The notes: generated by a model not told the origin, from the sequence alone. Counted from the stretch's first letter, positions 27,271-40,902 are shown. The stretch: 40,902 nt of DNA from Candidatus Berkelbacteria bacterium Licking1014_7 (GCA_007376535.1 VMGK01000011.1:1-40902), one strand, 5' to 3'. A program made the numbers and translations.

Positions 27271-27374
27271 TTATCCACAAAGTTTTCCACAGACATCCGC
27301 AGTTCGGCTTTACGGGTATAAATGTTCGGTTTTTATTCATAAAGGTCTTGCCTACCCTTGACGATTGTGGAAAA
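27271..27374. promoter_or_regulatory. DnaA-box-like cluster between rnpA and dnaA (TTATCCACA 27271-27279; TTTTCCACA 27283-27291; TGTGGAAAA 27366-27374)
   Basis: Direct match to the DnaA-box consensus or near-consensus. Confidence 0.6.
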
Positions 27375-27386
27375 CTTGCTTATGTT
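27358..27386 (+). promoter_or_regulatory. dnaA promoter TTGACG-N17-TATGTT, 6 nt before ATG 27393; contains the DnaA-like box in the spacer
   Basis: Direct reading. Confidence 0.65.
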
Positions 27387-27392
27387 AAAAAT

Positions 27393-28754
27393 ATGGATAT
27401 AAAAGATGTGTGGAAAGCGGTTTTAGGCGAACTGGAAGTTATTCTTTCAAAAGCCAACTTTACCACTTGGTTTAAAAACAGCGCGCTTTTATCTTTAGAT
27501 AAAGATATTGCCACTATTGCCGTGCCAAATGATTTTGCTGCCAGTTGGTATAGAAAAAAATTTGAGAGTCATATTGTTGCAGCGTTAAAAAAACATTTTC
27601 CTGAAGTTAAAACCATTGATTACAAAAAACTTGACACTAACATAACCCGGCAAATTCAAAACGATTTTTTTAAACAAGTGAGGACGACTGTCTCAGCGCG
27701 CCCGATAAAAACCGCGAGTTCTTATGTCACTAATCTGCAAAATAAATTTACTTTTGATAATTTTATCACTGGCGCCAGCAATCGCCTGGCTTTTGCCTCA
27801 GCCCAGGCAGTGGCGCAAAATCCAGGCATTTTATACAATCCATTTTTTATCTATGGCGGAGTAGGATTGGGTAAAACCCATTTAATCCATGCTATCGGCA
27901 ACGCGGTTTTAGAAAAAAAACCCCACTCAAAAATACTTTATACCCCGTGCGAGGACTTTTGCAATGAATTTGTGAGTTCAATCCAAACCAACAAAACAAT
28001 GATGTTTAAGAAAAAATATCGCGAAGTAGATGTATTTTTAGTGGATGATATTCAGTTTTTATCACGGAAAGAAGGCACTCAACAAGAATTTTTTCACACC
28101 TTTAACGCGCTTCACCAAAAAAACAATCAAATTATTATGACCTCCGATCGCCTGCCCAGAAATATTCCTTGCCTTGAAGACCGACTTACAAGCCGTTTTG
28201 GCGGCGGAATGGTTGCGGACATTTCCACGCCCGACACTGAAACAAGGCAAGCCATCTTAAAAGCCAAAGCGCTTGAAAGGGGTTGGGATGTGCCGGAAAA
28301 AATAATCGAATATATTGCTCAAAACATCAAAACCAATGTGCGTGAATTAGAAGGCGCCTTAAACCGCTTAGCCACCGAAGCGCTTGTCTCTAAACAAGAA
28401 TTAACTGAAGAATTTTCTCGCAAAACATTAGAAAATATTATTAATTCTTCTGAACAAAAAAACTTTGATCCAGCGCAAATTATTAAAAAGACCGCCCAAT
28501 TTTTTAATGTTGCGGAAAAAGATCTATTGGGAAAAAGTCGAGAAAGAAAATTTGTTCGTCCACGACAAATTATTATGTATCTAATTAGAGAAGAATTAAA
28601 CTGGGCGTTTCCTAAAATCGGCGAGATATTAGGTGGTAAAGATCATACCACTATTATGCACGGCGTAAAAATTATTACCAGGGAAATTAAAAAAGATCGG
28701 GATTTAGATAATAATATTATTTTAATTAAGCAACAATTATACAGCGCTGGATAA
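27393..28754 (+). CDS. dnaA: Chromosomal replication initiator protein DnaA
   Basis: NPFFIYGGVGLGKTHLIHAIGN, VFLVDDIQFLSRKEGTQQEFFHTFN, GGKDHTTIMHGVKII. Confidence 0.97.
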   Translation: MDIKDVWKAVLGELEVILSKANFTTWFKNSALLSLDKDIATIAVPNDFAASWYRKKFESHIVAALKKHFPEVKTIDYKKLDTNITRQIQNDFFKQVRTTVSARPIKTASSYVTNLQNKFTFDNFITGASNRLAFASAQAVAQNPGILYNPFFIYGGVGLGKTHLIHAIGNAVLEKKPHSKILYTPCEDFCNEFVSSIQTNKTMMFKKKYREVDVFLVDDIQFLSRKEGTQQEFFHTFNALHQKNNQIIMTSDRLPRNIPCLEDRLTSRFGGGMVADISTPDTETRQAILKAKALERGWDVPEKIIEYIAQNIKTNVRELEGALNRLATEALVSKQELTEEFSRKTLENIINSSEQKNFDPAQIIKKTAQFFNVAEKDLLGKSRERKFVRPRQIIMYLIREELNWAFPKIGEILGGKDHTTIMHGVKIITREIKKDRDLDNNIILIKQQLYSAG

Positions 28755-29086
28755 AATTGTGGATAACTTTTTTTTCCACTATTTAACGCAATTTTATCCC
28801 AATTTTATCCACAGAAAATCTGTAGTTATCCAGATATTTTCCACCAACTCTAAGCCCGTTTTTACACAAATTCACCCGACTTATTACTACTTTATTATTT
28901 ATATGTAAAATAATAAAGTAAAATTAAGAAATTTTTAATTTATTATTTCAATTGTAAATTCTTAGTTTTTAATTCTTATTTAATCATAGGCTTCGCCCTC
29001 TTGTAATAATAAAAAAAAACAATTAAAAAATAATGCCCATAAATTTTTATGGGTAAACCCCCACACTCTTAAGGGTGTGGGGGTAA
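28755..29086. other. Candidate oriC (dnaA-dnaN intergenic region)
   Basis: TGTGGATAA 28758-28766, TTATCCACA 28805-28813, TTATCCAGA 28826-28834, then a strongly AT-rich tract ~28878-28985. Confidence 0.75.
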
Positions 29087-29098
29087 ATGGAGAAAATT

Positions 29099-30205
29099 AT
29101 GAAATTTACTTGCACGCAGGAAAATTTATCAAAAGCGTTAAATATTGTTTCCCATATTTGCACTACTCGCTCTACCCTGCCGATTTTAAGTAATGTTTTA
29201 TTTTCAATTGAAAAAGGACGGCTGAAAATTTCTTCCACTGATTTAGAAATAGGGATTTCAACTTTTATCGGCGCCAAAATTGACGAGGAAGGAAGTTTTA
29301 CTGTTCCTTCTCGGCTTTTAGTGGAATTTGTCAACACTAATACCGATAAAAATATTGCCATTTATAAAGAGGGAGATAAATTAAATTTATTGAGCGAACA
29401 ATTTAACGCGCGCATTAAAGGGCTTGAGGCAGATGAATTTCCCAGTATTCCAGATGTAAAACCAGATAATACAATTGAGGTCTCGGGAGCGCTTTTGTCT
29501 GAGGCGATTTCTCAAACCGTCTTTGCCACGGCAATTGACGACAATAGACCAGTGCTTACTGGCGTTTTGTGTAAAGTGGAAAACGACTTGTTAAAAATTG
29601 TGGCAACAGATAGTTTTCGTCTGGCGGAAAAAACGGTAAATTTAGCCAAAAAATCAGATAAGAATTTTCAATTTTTAGTGCCAGCCAGAACATTTCAAGA
29701 ATTGTCGCGGCTTTTGTCAGAAAAAATTGAGTCGGTTAAAATATTTATTTCATCTAATCAGGTTCAGTTTTGTCTATCGGATGCGATTTTAATTTCTCGT
29801 TTGATTGCCGGAGAATATCCTGACTATACGCAAATTATTCCCAATGTTAAAAAAACCAGTATTTTGGCGCCTCGGCAGGAATTATCCAACGCCATTAAAA
29901 TGGCGAGTTTTTTTGCTCGCGAGGCGAATAATAATGTTAAAGTTAAAGTGGGAGACAAAAATGATTTGCAAATCGTCGCCACTTCGGCGCAAATGGGTGA
30001 TAATGTGTCTAAAACACAGGCAAAAATTGAGGGAGAGGCAATAGAAATATCGTTTAATGCTAAATATTTACTTGACCCGTTAGGGGTAATTGATGAGTTA
30101 GAGGTGATATTTGATCTCAATGGAAGGTTTAGCCCGGGCGTGATAAAGCCGGTTAAAGCCAAGGATTATTTGTATATCATAATGCCGCTCCGGCTGGAAG
30201 AATAG
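29099..30205 (+). CDS. dnaN: DNA polymerase III beta subunit (sliding clamp)
   Basis: MKFTCTQENLSKALNIVSHICTTRSTLPILSNVL, DNRPVLTGVL, IMPLRL C-term; ggag SD before ATG 29099. Confidence 0.96.
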   Translation: MKFTCTQENLSKALNIVSHICTTRSTLPILSNVLFSIEKGRLKISSTDLEIGISTFIGAKIDEEGSFTVPSRLLVEFVNTNTDKNIAIYKEGDKLNLLSEQFNARIKGLEADEFPSIPDVKPDNTIEVSGALLSEAISQTVFATAIDDNRPVLTGVLCKVENDLLKIVATDSFRLAEKTVNLAKKSDKNFQFLVPARTFQELSRLLSEKIESVKIFISSNQVQFCLSDAILISRLIAGEYPDYTQIIPNVKKTSILAPRQELSNAIKMASFFAREANNNVKVKVGDKNDLQIVATSAQMGDNVSKTQAKIEGEAIEISFNAKYLLDPLGVIDELEVIFDLNGRFSPGVIKPVKAKDYLYIIMPLRLEE

Positions 30206-30238
30206 GGTAGAATAATCTCAAATGTAAAAACTTTACAA

Positions 30239-31279
30239 GTGAAACTACTTTCTTTGCGTCTGCAAAATTTTAGAAATTATACTGATTTTGTTTTTGAGCC
30301 AGACGGTCTAACGGTTTTGGTTGGCAAAAACGGCGTTGGCAAAACAAATATCATTGAAGCCATCAGGTTTTTGACGATTTTCAAAAGTTATCGTTCCAAA
30401 AAACAAATTGAAGTGATAAAATGGAGTGAGGATTGGATGCGGTTAGAAGGCAGGGCGAAAATAGCGAACAAAAACCGAACATTGGAAATGTATCAAGATA
30501 AGACCCAAAAGGTGGCAAAAATTGACAAAGTTAATAAAAATATTACTCAAATGATTGGACTTTTTCGGTCGGTATTATTTGCGCCAGAGGATTTGAGTTT
30601 GGTGCAGGGCGCGCCCGGTTTAAGGAGAAAGTGGTGGGATATTGTGCTTTCGCAAAAAGATCGAAAGTACTTAAAAAAGTTAGTGATGTATTATAAAGTT
30701 TTGAAAAATAGAAATCATTTGTTGTTAAAAATTTTTAGCGGACTTGCTAATCAAGACGAACTTGATTACTGGGATAATCAATTAGTGGAAAACGGCGAAT
30801 TTTTGCAAAAAACCAGGCGAACATTTACCGAACATTTTAATAAATCAGCGTCACATTATTATCATACAGTTAGTTCTGAGCAACAAAATCTTCAAATAAA
30901 TTTGAAGATTAAAGATATTTCTTTACCCTTATTAAAAGAGCGCTTAAATTTTGACATAAAAATGCGCGCCACTACTGCTGGACCCCATCTTGATGATTTT
31001 TATTTTGAACTGGGCGGGCGGGATCTGGCTACTTTTGGGTCGCGGGGAGAATTTCGCAGCGTGATTTTGGTTTCAAAGATAATTGAGGCAGATTTTTTGC
31101 GCGAAGAAAATGATTTGCCAGTGATTTTATTGGACGATATTTTGAGCGAGTTAGATCAAAAACGTCGAAATCATTTATTTGAAATGTTTGGAGAACATCA
31201 GGTTATAATGACTACGACTGATGCAGCCGGGATTGAGGAAAAGGTGAGAAAGGGAGCGAAAATTGTTGAGTTGAATTAA
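30239..31279 (+). CDS. recF: DNA replication and repair protein RecF
   Basis: LRLQNFRNYTDF, VGKNGVGKTNIIEAI, LPVILLDDILSELDQKRR; GTG start. Confidence 0.95.
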   Translation: MKLLSLRLQNFRNYTDFVFEPDGLTVLVGKNGVGKTNIIEAIRFLTIFKSYRSKKQIEVIKWSEDWMRLEGRAKIANKNRTLEMYQDKTQKVAKIDKVNKNITQMIGLFRSVLFAPEDLSLVQGAPGLRRKWWDIVLSQKDRKYLKKLVMYYKVLKNRNHLLLKIFSGLANQDELDYWDNQLVENGEFLQKTRRTFTEHFNKSASHYYHTVSSEQQNLQINLKIKDISLPLLKERLNFDIKMRATTAGPHLDDFYFELGGRDLATFGSRGEFRSVILVSKIIEADFLREENDLPVILLDDILSELDQKRRNHLFEMFGEHQVIMTTTDAAGIEEKVRKGAKIVELN

Positions 31280-31432
31280 AAATTTCTTCATTACACGACT
31301 TACGCACTTTTAACAATTTTTAATATATTTTCGCAGGATAATTGACTTCGACGCCATCCGCAGCCGAGCGGGCCGGTCTTTGATCTTGCGAAGCAAGCAT
31401 CAAAGGAGCGAGGCTTAATTCTTATTTATTTT

Positions 31433-31693
31433 ATGTCTTTTGAACAGATTTCGGATTCAATTGTGAGGCGGTTTCCCCAAAAACCCTTAGTGGCGTCGCA
31501 AATTTGCGCCCAAGCGCAGATAGTTTTTGAAGATAGCGCGCAAGTGATTTCTTTTAATGACGGCACGATTAAAATTAAAACAGACGGAGTGAGTGCGATA
31601 AAAATTCGCCTAAAAAGCGATAAAGTGATTGCAAAAATCAATCAGAAACTAAGGCAAGAGTTGGTGGAGCGATTAGTGATTGGGGTGAGTTAA
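31433..31693 (+). CDS. DUF721 / DciA-like short protein
   Basis: 86 aa with a DUF721-style core (LVASQICAQAQIVF...GTIKIKTDGVSAIKIRLKSDKVIAKINQKL), immediately after recF. Confidence 0.65.
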   Translation: MSFEQISDSIVRRFPQKPLVASQICAQAQIVFEDSAQVISFNDGTIKIKTDGVSAIKIRLKSDKVIAKINQKLRQELVERLVIGVS

Positions 31694-31718: not shown

Positions 31719-33218
31719 TTACTCACTAGCTGTGAGATGGTACACCTTATCATTGATAATGTCGATTTGTTTGTTTAGAATAATCCAGGTTTGCATGAGA
31801 TATAATCTTTTATATGATACATCAATAATGGCTTTTCCGTGTTGCTGGTTTTTTTCTCTTGTGGAGTAGCTAAGTACGGCAATTCCATATTTGTCGGTTT
31901 TGGTTGACTTGTTGGACAGGTTGTCTGTAATTAACGCATTTTTTATCAATTTCCCCTGTTTGTTTTTAATAACAAAACCAATAATAATTGGTTTTGTTGA
32001 TTGTTCGGTATTAGATATTGTGTCTATTTGCGATTTTGCTTCGCCTTTTGCGGTTCCTCTGGCGACGGTTTTGTCGCCGGTGGTTATACTTTCGTCAAAA
32101 GCTTTAATGGTATATTCTAAACTCTTATCTGTTTGATGATAATATATATTATCTGACAAGGGAACTCCTGCGGCAGGGCTGCCAGTATAATAAATGCGAT
32201 AGGAAATATTATTATTCTTTGGATCTGGTTCTGCCCACCAGATTTTGACATATTCACCAGACGGGTTTTCTGTCGCATCACTCGCCCAGCTATCAACCCT
32301 TTTAGTGTTGGTGGTTAGTGTTTTTAGTTGTGTGGCAGGGGATTTTGTGGCGCGGGCACTGTCTCCCCCACTGACCCTGTTGCTCCCAATGCCACTTTCT
32401 GCTGCGGCAGGGGCAGCCGCATCTGCCGCCACTTTCATCACTTCGCTTTTACAGCCAAGTTCATAGTTGCCGCTGGCGTCTTTTTTTATCAAGTCATATA
32501 TTTTTATATAATAATAAGTAATTTTGTCTTTTGGAACGGTTAGTGTGGTTGATTGATCGGCTCCATTTATTTCTTTTGGTGGTTTCCAGTCGGAATTGTT
32601 ATCTGACCAGTAAACTCTATAAGTATAATTATCGGTTTTATCTGGGGCAATCACATTTGTCCATCTTAATTCAGCGGTTGTATCGGCGCGAAAAACCTTA
32701 AAATTCAAATTTTTGCATACATCGATTGTTCCTTCTTTTGGCGCCTCAGATGAAGCGCCGACTACACTGCCAGCCGGGGGCTGATCGCTGCCACCGCCTG
32801 GACTGGTGGTTATAGTTGGTTCTTTTAAGGATTCAGGGTGGGAAATGGACTTGATAAAGACCACTGCCAGCAAAATGACTGCCAATCCCAAAATTGCGCC
32901 GATAATCAGTTCTTTGGCTTCGCCCACTGCCTCTGACGATCCGCTGGAAGAAACATATTTGGCGCCAGCAATTGCTATCATCATTACCGCGCCAGCCGAA
33001 GCAATCGGTATGGCGTATTTTTTAAGTATCTCATTGATTAGTTCGCCAATGGAAGTGAAAGTGCTTACGGTTTCGTTTTCGGGGGTTGTTGTTTTTGTGG
33101 CTTCATTAATAATGTATTTTGTTTGCGCCTGAAACTCGTCAGCGTTAATTGGCGCGATAAAAAATCCCGAGATTGACAAGAGACCCAAAATTGAAATCAG
33201 AAAAATAAGTTTCCGCAT
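31719..33218 (-). CDS. Secreted/membrane protein: signal peptide, VirB2/TrbC-like two-TM region, fibronectin type III-like domains
   Basis: INEILKKYAIPIASAGAVMMIAIAGAKYVSSSGSSEAVGEAKELIIGAILGLAVILLAVVFIKSI; FN3-like TAELRWTNV...YTYRVYWSDNNSDW; TATAAT-N6-ATG at 33218. Confidence 0.7.
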   Translation of the reverse strand: MRKLIFLISILGLLSISGFFIAPINADEFQAQTKYIINEATKTTTPENETVSTFTSIGELINEILKKYAIPIASAGAVMMIAIAGAKYVSSSGSSEAVGEAKELIIGAILGLAVILLAVVFIKSISHPESLKEPTITTSPGGGSDQPPAGSVVGASSEAPKEGTIDVCKNLNFKVFRADTTAELRWTNVIAPDKTDNYTYRVYWSDNNSDWKPPKEINGADQSTTLTVPKDKITYYYIKIYDLIKKDASGNYELGCKSEVMKVAADAAAPAAAESGIGSNRVSGGDSARATKSPATQLKTLTTNTKRVDSWASDATENPSGEYVKIWWAEPDPKNNNISYRIYYTGSPAAGVPLSDNIYYHQTDKSLEYTIKAFDESITTGDKTVARGTAKGEAKSQIDTISNTEQSTKPIIIGFVIKNKQGKLIKNALITDNLSNKSTKTDKYGIAVLSYSTREKNQQHGKAIIDVSYKRLYLMQTWIILNKQIDIINDKVYHLTASE

Positions 33219-33224
33219 AGTTAT

Positions 33225-33230
33225 ATTATA
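33225..33230 (-). promoter_or_regulatory. -10 element TATAAT, 6 nt before ATG 33218, abutting repeat R2 copy 2
   Basis: Direct reading; no convincing -35. Confidence 0.45.
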
Positions 33231-33346
33231 AATCAAAAAGCAAATATCAAAAAGCAAAAACAAATATCAAAATGCAAAAATATTTTTAATTTTTGATATG
33301 CCTGCCCCGTATTCCCGCCAAGGCGGGATGTTCGGGGTCATTTTGC
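33231..33346. repeat. Dispersed repeat R2, copy 2 (short form, 116 bp)
   Basis: Matches the first ~116 bp of copies 1 and 3; stops at ...ggtcattttgc. Confidence 0.95.
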
Positions 33347-36300
33347 TAAACACTTCGCGGTAGCGGATCGAGCCAAAGAATTTATCCAATGTTTCCTGAC
33401 GGAAAGTGATAATTTGAATTGGTTTGGTAAGTTCGTCCGGACTGTCGTACGGTTCTTTGGCAAATTTACCGCCGTCTTTATAATGATAGCCCAGATCCAT
33501 TGTATCAGAGACCAAGTCGTCAACTTTGGCTTGGGCGGCTCTCATCGTGCCGGCTTGATAGTTTTGATTGTTCATTCCGTCAAATACGCCTAAGCCCAAA
33601 CTGAGCGCTGGATCTGCGGGCGCGCTGGCAATGCCCGGATAATAGCCGTCCGCTGTGCAAACATATTTGATTTTATAAGTGCCGAAAAGGTTGGTGAGGA
33701 TAAAAGCGGCAATCATTATGCCGAGCGTCACTGGATCAGGCGAAGGCACCACATAATAATAAATCGCCATTCCGGTCAACATCGCGGTTGAGCCCGGCAC
33801 CAATCCCAGATCCTGGTCAATCGCCACCATCTGTTCGCCAAAAATTTCAGTAACAACCAATGTGAGCACGATCGCAATAATTTCGCCCTTGGCTTGGGAT
33901 AAATTGGCTCCCTCAACATTAACAGTGTTAAGCGCCAAAAGCTTGTCAGCGCCTTGCGCTGTGGCAACGGCGGCTTTGGCGGTTTTATAGGCGCGTAAAG
34001 CGCCGTCAAACGTTTTATATGCTTTATAGACCTCCAACGATTTTCCCACCGGCAAACCGAGTTTTGCGTCAGCAAAAGAAAAAGCAAAAGTTTGCCATTG
34101 GGTTTTGTATAGATTGGTTAAGTCATTTACCATTGTTTTATAATCGCCAGTTCCCGTGGCTAAATAAATTGTTCTAAAAGTGCCGTTTTCAATTTTAATT
34201 TTTCCAAAAACCTGCTTGGTATTCATATAGCCCTCTAAAGCGGCAAAGCCGTCCAGCGCAATTTTGTCAATATTGTCTTTGGAAGGATTTGTAATATAAT
34301 TTAGCACTGCGTCTCTGGTTTTGGAATCGTTTTTGAAAATCGCCCCCAGAAGCGTGTTATCATTAATGTAATTTAATCCCAAATCCGCCAGCGCTGACGC
34401 TTTGCCGTTTTCATCCGCTTCAAACATTTTTTGGGCAAAGCCAGCCGGAATGTGCGGGTCTAATTTGTAAAGTTGGGAATCCATAATTTTATATTGCAGA
34501 TTTTTTTGATAGCCCTGACGGAGTTGGGCTTCTTCCCGCCTCATCCCTTCGGTTTTTAGATCGTTTTCTAATTGTTTAATCGTATTATGGTCAGCCGAAC
34601 CCAAAGCGCTTACTTCACTTTCAAAATTTTGTTCATAATTTTGTTCCCCAGCGTCATTAATCCGAGTTTGATCGGACGGATTTCCCAAAATCGCCTTGCG
34701 ATAGTCGTCATAAGTGGGCGCGATATTGGGAGGCACTCCCCTTTTTTGCGCCTCAGAAGCATGGTCGTCGGTTTTAGGCATTAGAAAATTATTAACCATA
34801 TACACGCCGGAAATTAAGCCGATCACCCGGGTATCGCCTTGCGCCAACAATCCCATATCTTGCGTGATCAATTGTCTGGCAGATTGATTGCTGGCCGGAG
34901 CGATGCGATCAATGGCATTGTTTGAATTTTGATTGATTAGTTTGATAATATCTTCTTCAAAGCCAGTGATGTCGCATTTTTTACTGCCAAATGCCCAGCC
35001 GCATCGCTCCACAAAAACATCGGTTTTATATAAATTGGCGATTTTATTGCCAATACCAAAATTGTCATCTAACATTATCATTCCCTGATCAACTAATTTT
35101 ATTATTCCACCTTCCGGGTCTTGTAAAATGTTAGAAAAGGTGCCAGAGGCGAAATTTAATTTATCATCTATGATTGGAGAAAATGTGGTATAAAAATCGG
35201 TCTTTGAAATCGCGCTGGGATTTAGGATGAGATTGCTTAAAATGTTATTCAGACCGCCGGCAAAAGTATTTTTATAATCACCTTCTAAGCCCAATTGCTG
35301 GGCTAATTGTTCAGACGCTTTGGCAACAGCGCCCGAGTTTCTCAGCAAATAGTCAGCGGTATTTTTTGCGTCAGAGGCATTATCTAAAAATTGTTTGACA
35401 TTGATTTCAGCGGTAAGCAGTTTTTTAATATTCCCCTGCGGCACATAAAGCATTTTTTCAAGAGCGCTGATTTGCGTCTGGAAATTTTGCACCTGCTGCT
35501 TTTCTGTTTCTGAAACACCCAGACCTTTTTCAAAATACTCTTTATCTTTCCACCAGACACTGTCTGTCTGGCGCAGACCGTTAATGCGGATGAGCAGGCG
35601 CGTCTTAAAAGTGTCAAGCCGTTGTTTGGCTTCGTCGGATGAACTTCCCACATCTTGTTGAAATTGCGATTGAGTATAGTCGTCGGAAAACGGCAGCGGA
35701 ATCCTAAACGCTTGGCTAAAAATAAAAGGTCCGTTTTTGTCTAAAATGGTTTGAATAGTGGCGTTTTCGTCGTTGGGATTAATACTGCCGGGATTAAGTC
35801 CTAAAATTTGTTCGGTTCTGCTGGCGGCCAAGTTGCGCGGCACACTGCCGGATAAGTCCACTGCTGGCATATCCAATAATCCAAAAATTACTTCTGAACT
35901 AATTTGGTTTAGGGCGGAATTGATCGCTTCATTTTTTTTGTCTTTGGTTTCATATTTGGCAGTATAGGCATTAAACAGGGTTTCGCCTCTGCCCGGGGTG
36001 AGCCGCAGGCCATTATCAAATTTGGCGCCGGCAATGCGGTTAAAAACACTCTTGGTGTCCCCGGATAAGATTCCAAAAATATCGTCCGGAGTCAAGAAAT
36101 AGCCGCCCAAATTAAATTCTTGTTTAATCGCTTGGCTAAAAGCGGTGTATTTTAGGGTCTGGCGACCGATTTTTTTGTAATATAAATTGATTGATTTCTC
36201 GCGAGTAAAGTCGTCGTTTCGTTCCGGGCTGGATAAATACTCTTGGGTCGCGCCTTGATACAGCCCGAGCAGGCGATCAATTTCCGCCGGTGTTTTTTCG

Positions 36301-38939
36301 TTAATTAAATCGTCAAAAAATGTCTCGCCAAAGACCTGTTGAAATTTGGCTTTGCCAACCGAAATATAGAAACTATCGGCTGTCAAATCCGGGTTTTGCT
36401 CAGTGACAAAACCAAAAGAGCCGCTGGGAAGTCCTAAATTTTGGGAGAGAGTTTCCGCGCCAAAAGCTAACGCCGCTTTTTCTGGGCTGATTTCGTTTTT
36501 GGCCAGTTTAATAATCGTGTCAATAAGCGGTTTTTTCTGTTTGTAAAGCGCTTTATATTTGTCTTTTTGCGAAAGTTCGCTTGCCGGATTGGCGCCGCCG
36601 GACTGAGAAGCGCTATCCGCGCCTTGAACCTCCGGATATTCCCCCTCAATCGCCGCCCGTAGGTGCAATTGGGCTAATGCCAAGTGTTGTTTGAGTTCAG
36701 CGGTCTTTTGATCAGTGTTATTTTTTTCCGCTTCAATTTGGAGTTTGTCTGTTTCGGTCTGGGTTAATTTTACCGCGGCCTTTATTCCATTAATGCTCGG
36801 TTTTTTTAAGATGTTGGTAAGGGTGTTTTTGATGTTGCTGGCAGGTTGGGAAAAGGCGCTATTATTTTTTAAGCCCGAGATTTGGGCTTGGAGGGCAATG
36901 GCTTGGTCAAACTGGCTTTGGGCTTGTTCCAGAGCGTTTTTTCTGAAATCAAAATTTGCCTTGACTTCCTGGATTTCCGGGTGTCGGGCTAAGAGTTCTT
37001 GTTCGGTTTGCTGGGCGAGTTGGCTGTTTTTTAACAAACTGGCGAAGATTTTTGTCCCTTGGTGCTGAAAGACCTCGCTGGCGCCGGTGCCCTGAAAAAC
37101 GCGGACAAAGTCATTGGCTGATAAATTAAGCGCCGAAATCAGTATCGCTTCCGGCAGATCTTTTTGCTCGTATTTTTTATAGCAATGGAAGGTGGTGGAA
37201 AAAGATCTGGGATTAGGAAAACCCGGATTATTTTCTTGAATTTCGCCCATTTCTGCCCGACCGCCGATGGTCTCGCAGTTTTGCTTAAAACCGCCTTCTG
37301 TTTCAAATTGGGTCTTAAAATCTTGTTCCGCATAAGAATACTCGCCGCCTTTTAGCGGATTGGGTGAAGAGTTCCGGTCTATTTCCACGTTTTGCAAAAG
37401 ACCATAAATGATATTTCGGCTGTTGGTTTCGCTGGTTATTCTTTCAGATAAAATCTGAGCGCCGATTTGTTTTAAGATTGGCTGGTCTCCGGCTTTGGCT
37501 TTGTTAAAGGAATCTTCTGGCAAGCCCAGCGCTTCATCAAGTTGATTGGGGTGGTAGGCGGTATGTGATTTATCTTTGGTTTGCGCTGCAAAATGTTTTT
37601 TGCCGATTTGAATCAAAATTTCCTCGCCGTTTTTGCCCAGCAAAGAACCAGCCGGCAGACGCAATTTGTCTTCTAAATTTCTTCTGCCTAAATTTTCAAT
37701 CATCTGGTCGTAACTTGCTCCGGTAAAAACGCCGCGCGGCAGTCCAATCGCTTCTTCAATATAGGCGGAACCCAGCGCTTCAACCCCGCCTTTCATATCT
37801 TTCCAATCCGGTGTTTTTTTGGTTTGCAAAATTGACATTACAAAACTTGAGCCCAGATAATAACTGATATCTTCCACTGACGCGGTTTTTAGATCTTCGG
37901 CTGACAGACCGCTGGTGAGTCCCAGTTCCTGGAAAAGATCAGCCAGATTGCCGCTGGCTAGATTTTTGAAAATATCATTCATTGTGTCGCCAAACGGGGA
38001 TTTAAGGTCTGATATGCCTGACTTGGTTTGGTAGGCGACTTTGATCGCTTGGGGCGCTTGGGGAATTTTTTTGTCTTTACCTAATCGTTTCTTTTTAATC
38101 AAGGTGCATTTTAATAAATCAATTTCAGAAATATCCAACGCCTGTCCGCGAAAATGCGGATCTTCCGCGCCCTCTGGCATTTGGGGGTGATTTTTGGCAG
38201 TCGCGCCTTCGTCTTCAAAGTCCTTCCAAATTCGTTCAACTTTAATCCGTTCGTGCCCGGCTCCGCCTTCATTAGACGGAGTAACAAGGTAAATGAGTGC
38301 TTCTAATGTGCGCCGATCCACAGTCAAGTCCTTATATTTTTCTAATGTTGAATCGCGATATTGATAATTATTATCTTCAGCCAAAGCGCGAATTTGATCT
38401 CTGCCGTCTTCTAAATGATTTTCATCAATTTTAGACAGCGCGATACGCAAAATGTATTTATTGTTGGGGTCAAAAATTTGATTGAGTCCGTCTTTAACTA
38501 AATTTTGCGCCGTGGCTTGATCCGCGTTTTTTAAGGAGTTGGACAGGTCGGTTAAAATTTGGCTTTCATTGTTGCTTACGAGCAATTTTCCGCTGGACGA
38601 GTCAATTTTTGATTTGAGAATTTCAATGTCAGTGGGGTTGAGAATAAGTTTGGGCGAGCCGACAATACTCAAATTAATCTTTTCCGCAATGTTTTGCAGG
38701 GACTGGTTTCTGGCATTTATTTTTTGTTCTTCTTCAGTAAGTTTATAAGGACTTTCTCCTTTGAGCGCTTGTTGATAAAGTTGCTCTTCTTCTTGGGCCG
38801 ATATTTCGTCTTCGGTTGAGTCCGGTTCTTGGGCTTTGGCTGGTTTAATGATTAAATTAAAATCTTGGCCATAGAAAAAAGTAGCAAAAGTAAGCTGGAA
38901 AGCGATTAATAAACAGAGAATTTTTGTTGGGGTTGACAT
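33267..38939 (-). CDS. Giant (1890 aa) secreted repeat protein, unknown function
   Basis: Single long ORF; signal peptide MSTPTKILCLLIAFQLTFATFFYG; recurrent LGLPxGSF motifs; HFRGQALDIS motif; TM segments near the C-terminus. Confidence 0.85.
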   Translation of the reverse strand: MSTPTKILCLLIAFQLTFATFFYGQDFNLIIKPAKAQEPDSTEDEISAQEEEQLYQQALKGESPYKLTEEEQKINARNQSLQNIAEKINLSIVGSPKLILNPTDIEILKSKIDSSSGKLLVSNNESQILTDLSNSLKNADQATAQNLVKDGLNQIFDPNNKYILRIALSKIDENHLEDGRDQIRALAEDNNYQYRDSTLEKYKDLTVDRRTLEALIYLVTPSNEGGAGHERIKVERIWKDFEDEGATAKNHPQMPEGAEDPHFRGQALDISEIDLLKCTLIKKKRLGKDKKIPQAPQAIKVAYQTKSGISDLKSPFGDTMNDIFKNLASGNLADLFQELGLTSGLSAEDLKTASVEDISYYLGSSFVMSILQTKKTPDWKDMKGGVEALGSAYIEEAIGLPRGVFTGASYDQMIENLGRRNLEDKLRLPAGSLLGKNGEEILIQIGKKHFAAQTKDKSHTAYHPNQLDEALGLPEDSFNKAKAGDQPILKQIGAQILSERITSETNSRNIIYGLLQNVEIDRNSSPNPLKGGEYSYAEQDFKTQFETEGGFKQNCETIGGRAEMGEIQENNPGFPNPRSFSTTFHCYKKYEQKDLPEAILISALNLSANDFVRVFQGTGASEVFQHQGTKIFASLLKNSQLAQQTEQELLARHPEIQEVKANFDFRKNALEQAQSQFDQAIALQAQISGLKNNSAFSQPASNIKNTLTNILKKPSINGIKAAVKLTQTETDKLQIEAEKNNTDQKTAELKQHLALAQLHLRAAIEGEYPEVQGADSASQSGGANPASELSQKDKYKALYKQKKPLIDTIIKLAKNEISPEKAALAFGAETLSQNLGLPSGSFGFVTEQNPDLTADSFYISVGKAKFQQVFGETFFDDLINEKTPAEIDRLLGLYQGATQEYLSSPERNDDFTREKSINLYYKKIGRQTLKYTAFSQAIKQEFNLGGYFLTPDDIFGILSGDTKSVFNRIAGAKFDNGLRLTPGRGETLFNAYTAKYETKDKKNEAINSALNQISSEVIFGLLDMPAVDLSGSVPRNLAASRTEQILGLNPGSINPNDENATIQTILDKNGPFIFSQAFRIPLPFSDDYTQSQFQQDVGSSSDEAKQRLDTFKTRLLIRINGLRQTDSVWWKDKEYFEKGLGVSETEKQQVQNFQTQISALEKMLYVPQGNIKKLLTAEINVKQFLDNASDAKNTADYLLRNSGAVAKASEQLAQQLGLEGDYKNTFAGGLNNILSNLILNPSAISKTDFYTTFSPIIDDKLNFASGTFSNILQDPEGGIIKLVDQGMIMLDDNFGIGNKIANLYKTDVFVERCGWAFGSKKCDITGFEEDIIKLINQNSNNAIDRIAPASNQSARQLITQDMGLLAQGDTRVIGLISGVYMVNNFLMPKTDDHASEAQKRGVPPNIAPTYDDYRKAILGNPSDQTRINDAGEQNYEQNFESEVSALGSADHNTIKQLENDLKTEGMRREEAQLRQGYQKNLQYKIMDSQLYKLDPHIPAGFAQKMFEADENGKASALADLGLNYINDNTLLGAIFKNDSKTRDAVLNYITNPSKDNIDKIALDGFAALEGYMNTKQVFGKIKIENGTFRTIYLATGTGDYKTMVNDLTNLYKTQWQTFAFSFADAKLGLPVGKSLEVYKAYKTFDGALRAYKTAKAAVATAQGADKLLALNTVNVEGANLSQAKGEIIAIVLTLVVTEIFGEQMVAIDQDLGLVPGSTAMLTGMAIYYYVVPSPDPVTLGIMIAAFILTNLFGTYKIKYVCTADGYYPGIASAPADPALSLGLGVFDGMNNQNYQAGTMRAAQAKVDDLVSDTMDLGYHYKDGGKFAKEPYDSPDELTKPIQIITFRQETLDKFFGSIRYREVFSKMTPNIPPWREYGAGISKIKNIFAF

Positions 38940-38995
38940 AGATAAGAATTAGTGATTATATTTAGTAGATTTGTTCTTTGAAAGGAGTGGAGCCA

Positions 38996-39520
38996 ATGAA
39001 GGTGAATCGTCTATCTATCGCCCTGCCTGTCGTATTGGTTTTTGGGAGCGCTGGTGCGGCTGGCGCTGATATGACCATGGTTGACGGCGCAGAAATTCAT
39101 TATTCCAAGAAAACATTGCGTCAGCAGGAAAAGCGGGTTAAAGACACTTTTGATAAAATTGTCAAGCGGCTGGCTGGTCGCGATTGGCAAAAACAAATGA
39201 AAGAATTGATTTATACGGCTGATGGGGTCTTGAGCAGAAATCTAGACATAAAAGAACCTGGCGTGATGAAGATGTTGTCTTATATGCGCAGCGGGTTATT
39301 GCGCGGTGAATTGAGACATACCAAGACCGCTTTTGCTCGCATTCATTGGAAGTTTACGAATAATGACGGAAAAAAATCAGCATTCAAAGGCAAAGAGGTG
39401 GCAACATTGGTTAAAGGCAAGCCGGACAAAGATGGTTTTCAGGAAAGAATCGTCATTCGTATGTTTGATGTGGCTGGCGCCTATCGGATTTGGGATATTG
39501 AGGATATCAGCGAGCAGTAG
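38996..39520 (+). CDS. Small secreted protein, unknown function
   Basis: Signal peptide MKVNRLSIALPVVLVFGSAGAAGA; ggag SD; followed by a terminator. Confidence 0.75.
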   Translation: MKVNRLSIALPVVLVFGSAGAAGADMTMVDGAEIHYSKKTLRQQEKRVKDTFDKIVKRLAGRDWQKQMKELIYTADGVLSRNLDIKEPGVMKMLSYMRSGLLRGELRHTKTAFARIHWKFTNNDGKKSAFKGKEVATLVKGKPDKDGFQERIVIRMFDVAGAYRIWDIEDISEQ

Positions 39521-39550
39521 AGCCGTTTTGGCTATTTGTTAATAATCCTG

Positions 39551-39575
39551 CCCCGCCCAAAAGCGGGGTTTTTTT
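39551..39575 (+). terminator. Rho-independent terminator
   Basis: CCCCGC-ccaaaa-GCGGGG followed by TTTTTTT. Confidence 0.9.
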
Positions 39576-40704
39576 ATTCTTTTATTTCAATCGGAATTCC
39601 GGACTTAATTAAAGGAAAAATGTATTTAAGATGAGAGTTGAACATTCTGATGCAGCCATTGGTGGGATAAAGGGCTTGTTGTTTTTTCGGATCGCTGCCA
39701 TGGATAATAATTGCTCCTCGTTGGGGAATTGTGAGCCGTATTTTATAATAACCTAATGGTGTTCCGTAGATAGAGCTACGAAGCATTTGTCCGGTGTGAA
39801 CTTTTTTGCCGATAGTATAAGTTCCGCTAGGCGTGGCATTGTCACTTTTTTTAAATCCCGATGTTTTGTGATTTTTGCCAATGTCAATCGGCGCGCTGCC
39901 CAAGGTTTTTCCCTGACTGTCTAAAAAATACATCCGTCGTTTAGTTGGATCGTTATTGCTTTTTATCACTAAAATTTTAGCGATCTCAATGTCTTTGAGG
40001 TGTTCAAAATCAGCTCCGGCTGGCGCAAGATAAATGGTGGATGTTTTTTCTATTTCGTCAATTAGGGCGCTGAATTTTTCAATCGTTGTCTTGTCTGAAA
40101 CATTGGTAATTTGCGGAAGCAATCCCTGCGCCTCTTCAATCTGTTGAAATATTTTTTTGACCTCGTCTTTGTCTTGGGTTGGCTGGGGAATTTTTTTAAG
40201 ATCGGTTTGCGTTTCCGCAAGCCATGAACTGAAAGTGGGATTATTTTCTAAAATGTAGTTTCGTTGCGCTTCATAATCACCCGCCAAATTTAATAATTTT
40301 CTAATTAAATCATTATCAGTCGTTTCCTGAAGTTCGCTGGTGCCAGTGTCTCGCGGGTCTCCTCCGCTGGAGATGCTGATAATCACAAACATTATTCCGG
40401 CAATTAAGACGGTGATAATGGCAATTACCAATGCCACGGGAATTCCATAACTCAAGGCCAGGGCTAATATTTTTTTGACGATAAATCGCTGGACAAGTTT
40501 GGCTTTGTCAGAAATTGCGCGCGCCAAATCGCCAGTAAGTTGCTCTTTGGCTTTGGCTCCAAGACCTCTGGTGGGCGACGTTTGCTCTGTCGCTGGCGCG
40601 TTTTCATTGTCCGGCGCGCCGGCTTCATTGACGTTTTGCCCGCCTTCGCCTTCGCCTGTCTCGCTTTCTGGCGCTGGTTGTGGTTTTTCTTCTTCTGGAA
40701 TCAT
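39574..40704 (-). CDS. Membrane-anchored L,D-transpeptidase (YkuD domain) with an acidic disordered N-terminus
   Basis: GAIIIHGSDPKKQQALYPTNGCIRMFN catalytic HG...GCIR motif; one TM at ~residues 80-115. Confidence 0.88.
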   Translation of the reverse strand: MIPEEEKPQPAPESETGEGEGGQNVNEAGAPDNENAPATEQTSPTRGLGAKAKEQLTGDLARAISDKAKLVQRFIVKKILALALSYGIPVALVIAIITVLIAGIMFVIISISSGGDPRDTGTSELQETTDNDLIRKLLNLAGDYEAQRNYILENNPTFSSWLAETQTDLKKIPQPTQDKDEVKKIFQQIEEAQGLLPQITNVSDKTTIEKFSALIDEIEKTSTIYLAPAGADFEHLKDIEIAKILVIKSNNDPTKRRMYFLDSQGKTLGSAPIDIGKNHKTSGFKKSDNATPSGTYTIGKKVHTGQMLRSSIYGTPLGYYKIRLTIPQRGAIIIHGSDPKKQQALYPTNGCIRMFNSHLKYIFPLIKSGIPIEIKE

Positions 40705-40711
40705 AGAAAAT

Positions 40712-40902
40712 AATCAAAAAGCAAAAAGTAAAAAGCAAAAACAAATATTAAAATGTAAAAAGATTTTTAATTTTTGATATGCCTGCCCCGTATTCCCGCC
40801 AAGGCGGGATGTTCGGGGTCATTTTGCCTGCCCAGCGAAATGAAATCTACTTGCAAATTCCTATAATTAGGATATTGCAAGAGATTGAATGAAGATGGGA
40901 TT
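40712..40902. repeat. Dispersed repeat R2, copy 3 (full length, runs to the window edge)
   Basis: Near-identical to 13281-13476. Confidence 0.95.

Follow-up and report, generated by a model that had tools for sequence, protein, structure and literature searches.

What do the genes for exported proteins beside the replication genes of Candidatus Berkelbacteria bacterium Licking1014_7, a tiny, presumably parasitic bacterium, build? The DNA analyzed here (the window) is the entire contig C12, 40,902 bases long, from a genome of 806 kb in 41 contigs, and the contig stops at its right edge. The original prediction placed an envelope or secretion module of four ORFs between positions 31719 and 40704, and all four are present, at the positions first proposed or close to them (Table 1). 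The genes for the pilin-like protein, the giant protein and the YkuD transpeptidase are all on the minus strand, facing dnaA-dnaN-recF-DciA, and the locus adjoins the replication origin. The fourth ORF had been counted as a secreted component of the module. It sits on the plus strand between the giant and transpeptidase genes, no relative of it was found in any fetched locus, and it was rejected as a module member. In Patescibacteria, type IV secretion systems (T4SS) with MPF_FATA affinity, pilin arrays and a location near dnaA are described phylum-wide in PMC12102498. We consider it probable that our locus is the origin-proximal, envelope-facing end of this chromosomal, MPF_FATA-related T4SS, acting by the mechanism proposed below.

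Table 1. Features of the locus, with positions counted from the first base of the window.
Feature	Position	Strand	Basis or remark
dnaA, dnaN, recF, DciA-like	27348..31693	+	Flank the module, as they do in relatives
VirB2-like T4SS_pilin (PF18895) with long extracytoplasmic C-terminal part	31719..33218	-	Profile search
Interspersed repeat, copy 1, 115 bp	33231..33345		Just upstream of pilin ATG
Giant secreted LGLP-repeat protein, 1890 aa	33267..38939	-	ORF and homologue searches
Giant C-terminal conserved block, residues about 1761-1866, to ...YREVFSK	33342..33659	-	
Giant insert between halves, LGLP-type units	33660..37979	-	
Giant N-terminal conserved block, residues about 196-320	37980..38354	-	Alignments
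HFRGQALD, H-x6-D zinc-type motif (M15/LAS signature), residues 262-269	38133..38156	-	Alignment
174-aa protein, signal-like N-terminus	38978/38996..39520	+	ORF calling
Stalk-TM-enzyme protein with YkuD L,D-transpeptidase domain, 376 aa	39574..40704	-	YkuD E 1.4e-15
Interspersed repeat, copy 2	40712..40826		Just upstream of transpeptidase start, near contig end

The pilin-like protein has 499 aa from the ATG at 33218 (514 aa for the full ORF). PF18895 matched residues 71-137 of the 514-aa ORF in the protein scan (E 2.5e-5, 24.7 bits against a cut-off of 26.6) and scored above the cut-off in the genome search (30.0 bits), while an HMM built from the C1 pilin array of the same genome gave E 7.7e-15. 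Two hydrophobic segments (83-101 and 119-137) form a two-TM hairpin. The family assignment of the original prediction therefore stands, but not its plural FN3-like domains: a single, weak FN3-like stretch is discernible in the exterior (fn3 E 0.018). A pilin occupies the same position in G002 (L056_11, phmmer 4.4e-12) and in G001 (L054_1), where it is fused to a C39-like domain. The genome of the window has nine PF18895 matches, eight on C1:3826-7077 and one in the window. The C1 array consists of seven pilin genes in a row with eight PF18895 domains (L034:3778-7386); some of its members have additional extracytoplasmic parts, and genes for an M48 peptidase and a solute-binding protein adjoin it.

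Core T4SS genes were also found in this genome. Contig C33 carries PrgI, TrsD, VirB4 and a hydrolase together, about 5-10 kb from its end. They encode PrgI (3.3e-12), a 338-aa TrsD-like protein, a 604-aa VirB4 (P-loop_TraG 2.2e-30) and a 612-aa VirB1-like hydrolase with NlpC/P60 and Amidase_3 domains. The TrsD identity is based on position, on the match to genes at the same place in relatives and on a weak TraC_F_IV match. Beyond the VirB4 of C33, the components that were to be sought according to the original prediction include a TrbL/VirB6 protein of 889 aa on C1 (1.6e-5, 25.2 bits against a cut-off of 25.9) and a coupling protein, represented by two TraG-D_C matches over the cut-off on C3. 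A second AAA_10 match, on C1, is FtsK-like and was rejected as another VirB4. Directly upstream of PrgI on C33 (L036:6233-8935) there is a gene for a ClpA/ClpB-like protein with a double AAA region and membrane segments at its N-terminus, possibly a T4SS-linked unfoldase, and a similar-sized gene is found at the same place in Berkelbacteria relatives (L110, L114 and L189). Since C12 stops at the right edge of the window, a VirB4 beyond that edge is not demonstrable. The ends of C12 and C33 were compared and do not overlap, and C33 terminates in an unrelated open frame. With the core on a separate, non-overlapping contig, the adjacency of VirB4 to the window genes is inferred in this genome. 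Joining C33(+) to C12(-) would restore the gene order of the relatives, with two propeller-like genes in place.

That order was read in the loci of 42 giant-bearing genomes. The T4SS core (VirB4/TrsD/PrgI) lies within 1.2-6.4 kb of the giant gene in 26 of the 42, the replication genes dnaA/dnaN/recF/DciA are beside it in 29, and both are present in 21; most of the remaining loci are interrupted by contig ends. The usual order is dnaA-dnaN-recF-DciA, giant, stalk enzyme, PEGA/beta-propeller, wall hydrolase, VirB4, TrsD and PrgI. The full run, with the pilin between the giant and DciA, occurs in Ca. Berkelbacteria CG06_land_8_20_14_3_00_43_10 (L056 = L189), which belongs to the order of the window, and the complete Berkelbacteria genome CP011213.1 is among the syntenic loci. 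A conserved neighbourhood that includes a secretion ATPase, on which the original prediction had made its reading depend, therefore exists in relatives, and the synteny of the relatives and the core genes of this genome together support a type IV secretion apparatus. The membrane-anchored PEGA/beta-propeller protein is conserved between the stalk enzyme and the wall hydrolase (L037:4506-5549, L040:15793-17064 and others).

The giant, the pilin-like protein and the transpeptidase could instead form an independent surface or attachment operon, an adhesin or S-layer-like coat, which the T4SS merely neighbours, both being near the origin for gene dosage. Origin-proximal genes do gain dosage, according to PMC12102498, the giant-like gene of Kazan is divergent from PrgI-VirB4, and the pilin is beside the giant only within the order of the window, the eight other pilin matches being on C1. 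However, gene order and strand with VirB4 are maintained in the 26 genomes, across many families, and the module contains wall enzymes that stalk-giant fusions tie to the giant. We regard such an operon as quite unlikely. Gene neighbourhood is not, for the T4SS reading either, a proof of a physical complex.

The protein encoded nearest to the right edge agrees with the membrane L,D-transpeptidase originally proposed. It has an acidic N-terminal tail, one TM segment at residues 91-109, a helical stalk and a YkuD domain in which the HG..NGCIR motif is intact (expected HG...(S/N)GC(I/V)R). Residues 3-228 match an HMM made only from the stalk proteins of relatives (58.5 bits), and in the locus-wide search with this stalk HMM the window transpeptidase had E 2e-17. 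The C-terminal enzyme of the stalk protein changes with the family: it is M23, C39_2 or NlpC-like, and M15-like in four. Those four M15-like stalk proteins of giant loci end in an uninterrupted SQHxxGxAxDI ... NH(I/W)HI. Among the 25 stalk enzymes examined YkuD was found in the window alone, and no YkuD match in relatives was on a giant-bearing contig. The transpeptidase is thus one version of a membrane-stalk protein that is itself conserved but exchanges its wall enzyme from lineage to lineage. In G031, G036, G004, G010, G023, G005, G019 and Kazan the tail, TM segment and stalk are fused to the N-terminus of the giant (loci L037, L038, L072, L104, L105, L108, L109 and Kazan). These gene fusions in relatives therefore link the window transpeptidase to the giant.

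The window giant has a signal-like segment at its N-terminus followed by LGLP-type units, and no Pfam family matched it. Its N-terminal block has the consensus D.R..L.YLVTP..GGAGHERI.V.RI ... HFRGQALDISEID, and a hydrophobic hairpin, conserved and located around LGLVPGSTAM (residues about 1679-1755), closes the insert. Likeness to the relatives breaks off at YREVFSK, and the terminal His motif (e.g. DHIHxGF) that is present in all 33 other complete giants is missing, whereas the giant of G001 has it. The reason is that the final ~24 codons and the stop are provided by copy 1 of the 115-bp repeat, which is about 93% identical to copy 2 over 115 aligned bases. Either the gene was truncated by the repeat or the assembly collapsed at it. 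In tblastn, partial copies came up on C13, C34 and C35, and copies also lie close to contig ends, so that the repeat may break or collapse the assembly.

Homologues of the giant were found in 39 of the 61 genomes searched, this genome included, and in further genomes with a compact divergent query. Compact giants such as L104_12 (836 aa) and L072_6 (899 aa) are among the family. They carry SxHxxGxAxD (SAHxxGQAxDISEID) near the N-terminus and [D/x]xxH[I/V]G[F/Y] in the last few residues, with the terminal His about 5 residues before the C-terminus. An insert made of LGLP-type units or coiled coil, about 400 to 2,500 residues long, separates the two motif halves. In the H-x6-D motif the H is present in 26 of 28 aligned homologues and the D in 27 of 28, and D, R, L, S, H, G, A, D, Q, G and H are invariant across 11 giants. 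A His plus a hydrophobic residue within the last 14 positions was found in 33/34 complete giants, against 35/444 control ORFs. The C-terminal block follows a hydrophobic stretch in 28/34. From these motifs the giants look like a zinc peptidase split by a very long helical insert. The signature is that of Peptidase M15 / LAS enzymes (Pfam M15_2, M15_3, M15_4 and VanY), which share SxHxxGxAxD and a later D/x-x-x-H; in the giants, in contrast, the last ligand is hundreds to 2,500 residues downstream, past the helical insert, and some members have lost ligands.

Profile and structure searches bear on this likeness to different degrees. When 145 genomes of the phylum were searched with Peptidase_M15_2, the sole match was the giant of G016, at the same N-terminal block (E 1.4e-4), and the spliced terminal blocks matched only four Pfam families, including M15_2 (1.3e-3) and M15_4 (0.059). 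With hhalign, the N-half of the spliced sequence aligned in register with M15 (P 1.2e-4) and the C-half by a short motif only. The order-swapped control gave a similar score, because the N-half drives the hhalign score, and hhalign is therefore no proof of domain assembly. AlphaFold2 modelled both terminal blocks of the G010 giant with pLDDT mostly 85-95 and an uncertain insert, and predicted the LGLP insert of the G027 giant as all-helical. Foldseek of both models against PDB and BFVD gave no match at E<=0.001, so the assembled M15/LAS fold is a hypothesis. Profile searches of PDB with full and spliced giants gave no meaningful match, and a PHROGs search nothing relevant.

Catalysis by the giant, if it occurs, cannot be general across lineages as far as the motifs tell, since only 30 of the 42 long giants or fragments match the strict N-motif pattern, the other 12 having lost or changed it, and the motif is degenerate in Kazan. 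Some members are probably structural, because the Kazan giants have lost the N-terminal ligands. The Kazan loci (L117-L122) contain short stalk-giant fusions of 618-700 aa that are divergent from PrgI-VirB4. The giant seems to be restricted to the class of the window and Kazan, as its motif was not found in the large T4SS-locus proteins of other classes. In Moranbacteria (L136, L138, L141, L144, L150 and L162), proteins of 900-1,200 aa with two predicted TMs and without the motif of the giant are encoded shortly downstream of VirB4; they are maybe its functional counterparts in another class.

A large protein with an M15-like signature and a conserved hydrophobic hairpin, encoded beside a secretion ATPase, could also be a substrate of the T4SS, a wall-degrading or pore-forming effector for the host bacterium and not a structural part. 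However, the signal-like N-terminus in the window and the anchoring by the stalk-TM part in the fused members would imply Sec export and tethering, and the constancy of its place in the locus suits a machine part better. We consider an effector very unlikely.

Taking the giant as part of the secretion apparatus, we propose the following mechanism. After export, the giant would be kept at the secretion site by the stalk. The terminal halves of the giant would join as an M15/LAS-type zinc peptidoglycan-peptidase domain, which may work in some lineages and have degenerated in others, and the long helical insert, together with the hydrophobic hairpin, would form a rod or scaffold across the wall and surface. 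The enzyme borne by the stalk, here a transpeptidase, would crosslink or seal the wall. Together, the giant, the stalk enzyme and the lysozyme/NlpC/amidase hydrolase would make and stabilise a wall opening for the channel, and the FN3-bearing pilin would present a surface tip to the host cell. The idea of a contact machine, also part of the original prediction, is a functional inference whose sole support is a published finding, reported in PMC12102498, that a saccharibacterium cannot do without its T4SS.

Several of these components have known parallels. The chromosomal T4SS of Patescibacteria described in PMC12102498 likewise has VirB4, TrsD, PrgI/VirB3, VirB6 and arrays of VirB2-like pilins, is near dnaA/dnaN and has wall hydrolases downstream of VirB4; the giant, the enzyme-swapping stalk and the propeller protein are added here. 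Giant or large proteins, transpeptidases and fibronectin all go unmentioned in the main text of that paper, and we found no description of the giant or of enzyme swapping in the openly accessible literature. The location of the T4SS near oriC is thus already published; the new elements are the split-domain giant and the stalk with its interchangeable enzymes. Hydrolases of the VirB1 / PrgK-TraG type in monoderm conjugation are also wall-active domains on membrane-anchored proteins encoded beside VirB4, and the NlpC/P60 and amidase protein of C33 fits this role. However, the loci described here have up to three wall-enzyme genes per T4SS, and one of these enzymes changes catalytic class between lineages, being a transpeptidase in the window.

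Phage tail tape-measure proteins are also long and helical, with lineage-specific length and hydrophobic segments, and often carry a peptidoglycan peptidase. In the BFVD search, several tail or tape-measure entries were among the highest-ranking ones, the best of them with E 2.4e-3. However, this is a lead only, with TM-scores of about 0.1, no E below 0.001 and no sequence similarity. By analogy, the giant could be a novel envelope part of the T4SS: a zinc peptidoglycan peptidase interrupted by a helical rod of 0.4-2.5 thousand residues, with a membrane-active hairpin and tethered by the stalk, that would make a local opening in the wall and, like a tape-measure protein in phage tails, bridge or measure the gap to the partner cell. 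We put this forward tentatively, as a possible but rather doubtful extension.

In the single species of ultrasmall epibiont for which this was tested, the T4SS is essential, and its role there has been described as completely unknown (PMC11665869). The outer parts of this system have been largely undescribed until now. For a large group of Patescibacteria, a conserved set of such parts is now defined, composed of the giant, the stalk with exchangeable enzymes, the propeller protein and the decorated pilin. The giant offers a testable metal site, and the locus provides genes, motifs and residues through which the breach or remodelling of the wall at cell contact may be approached.
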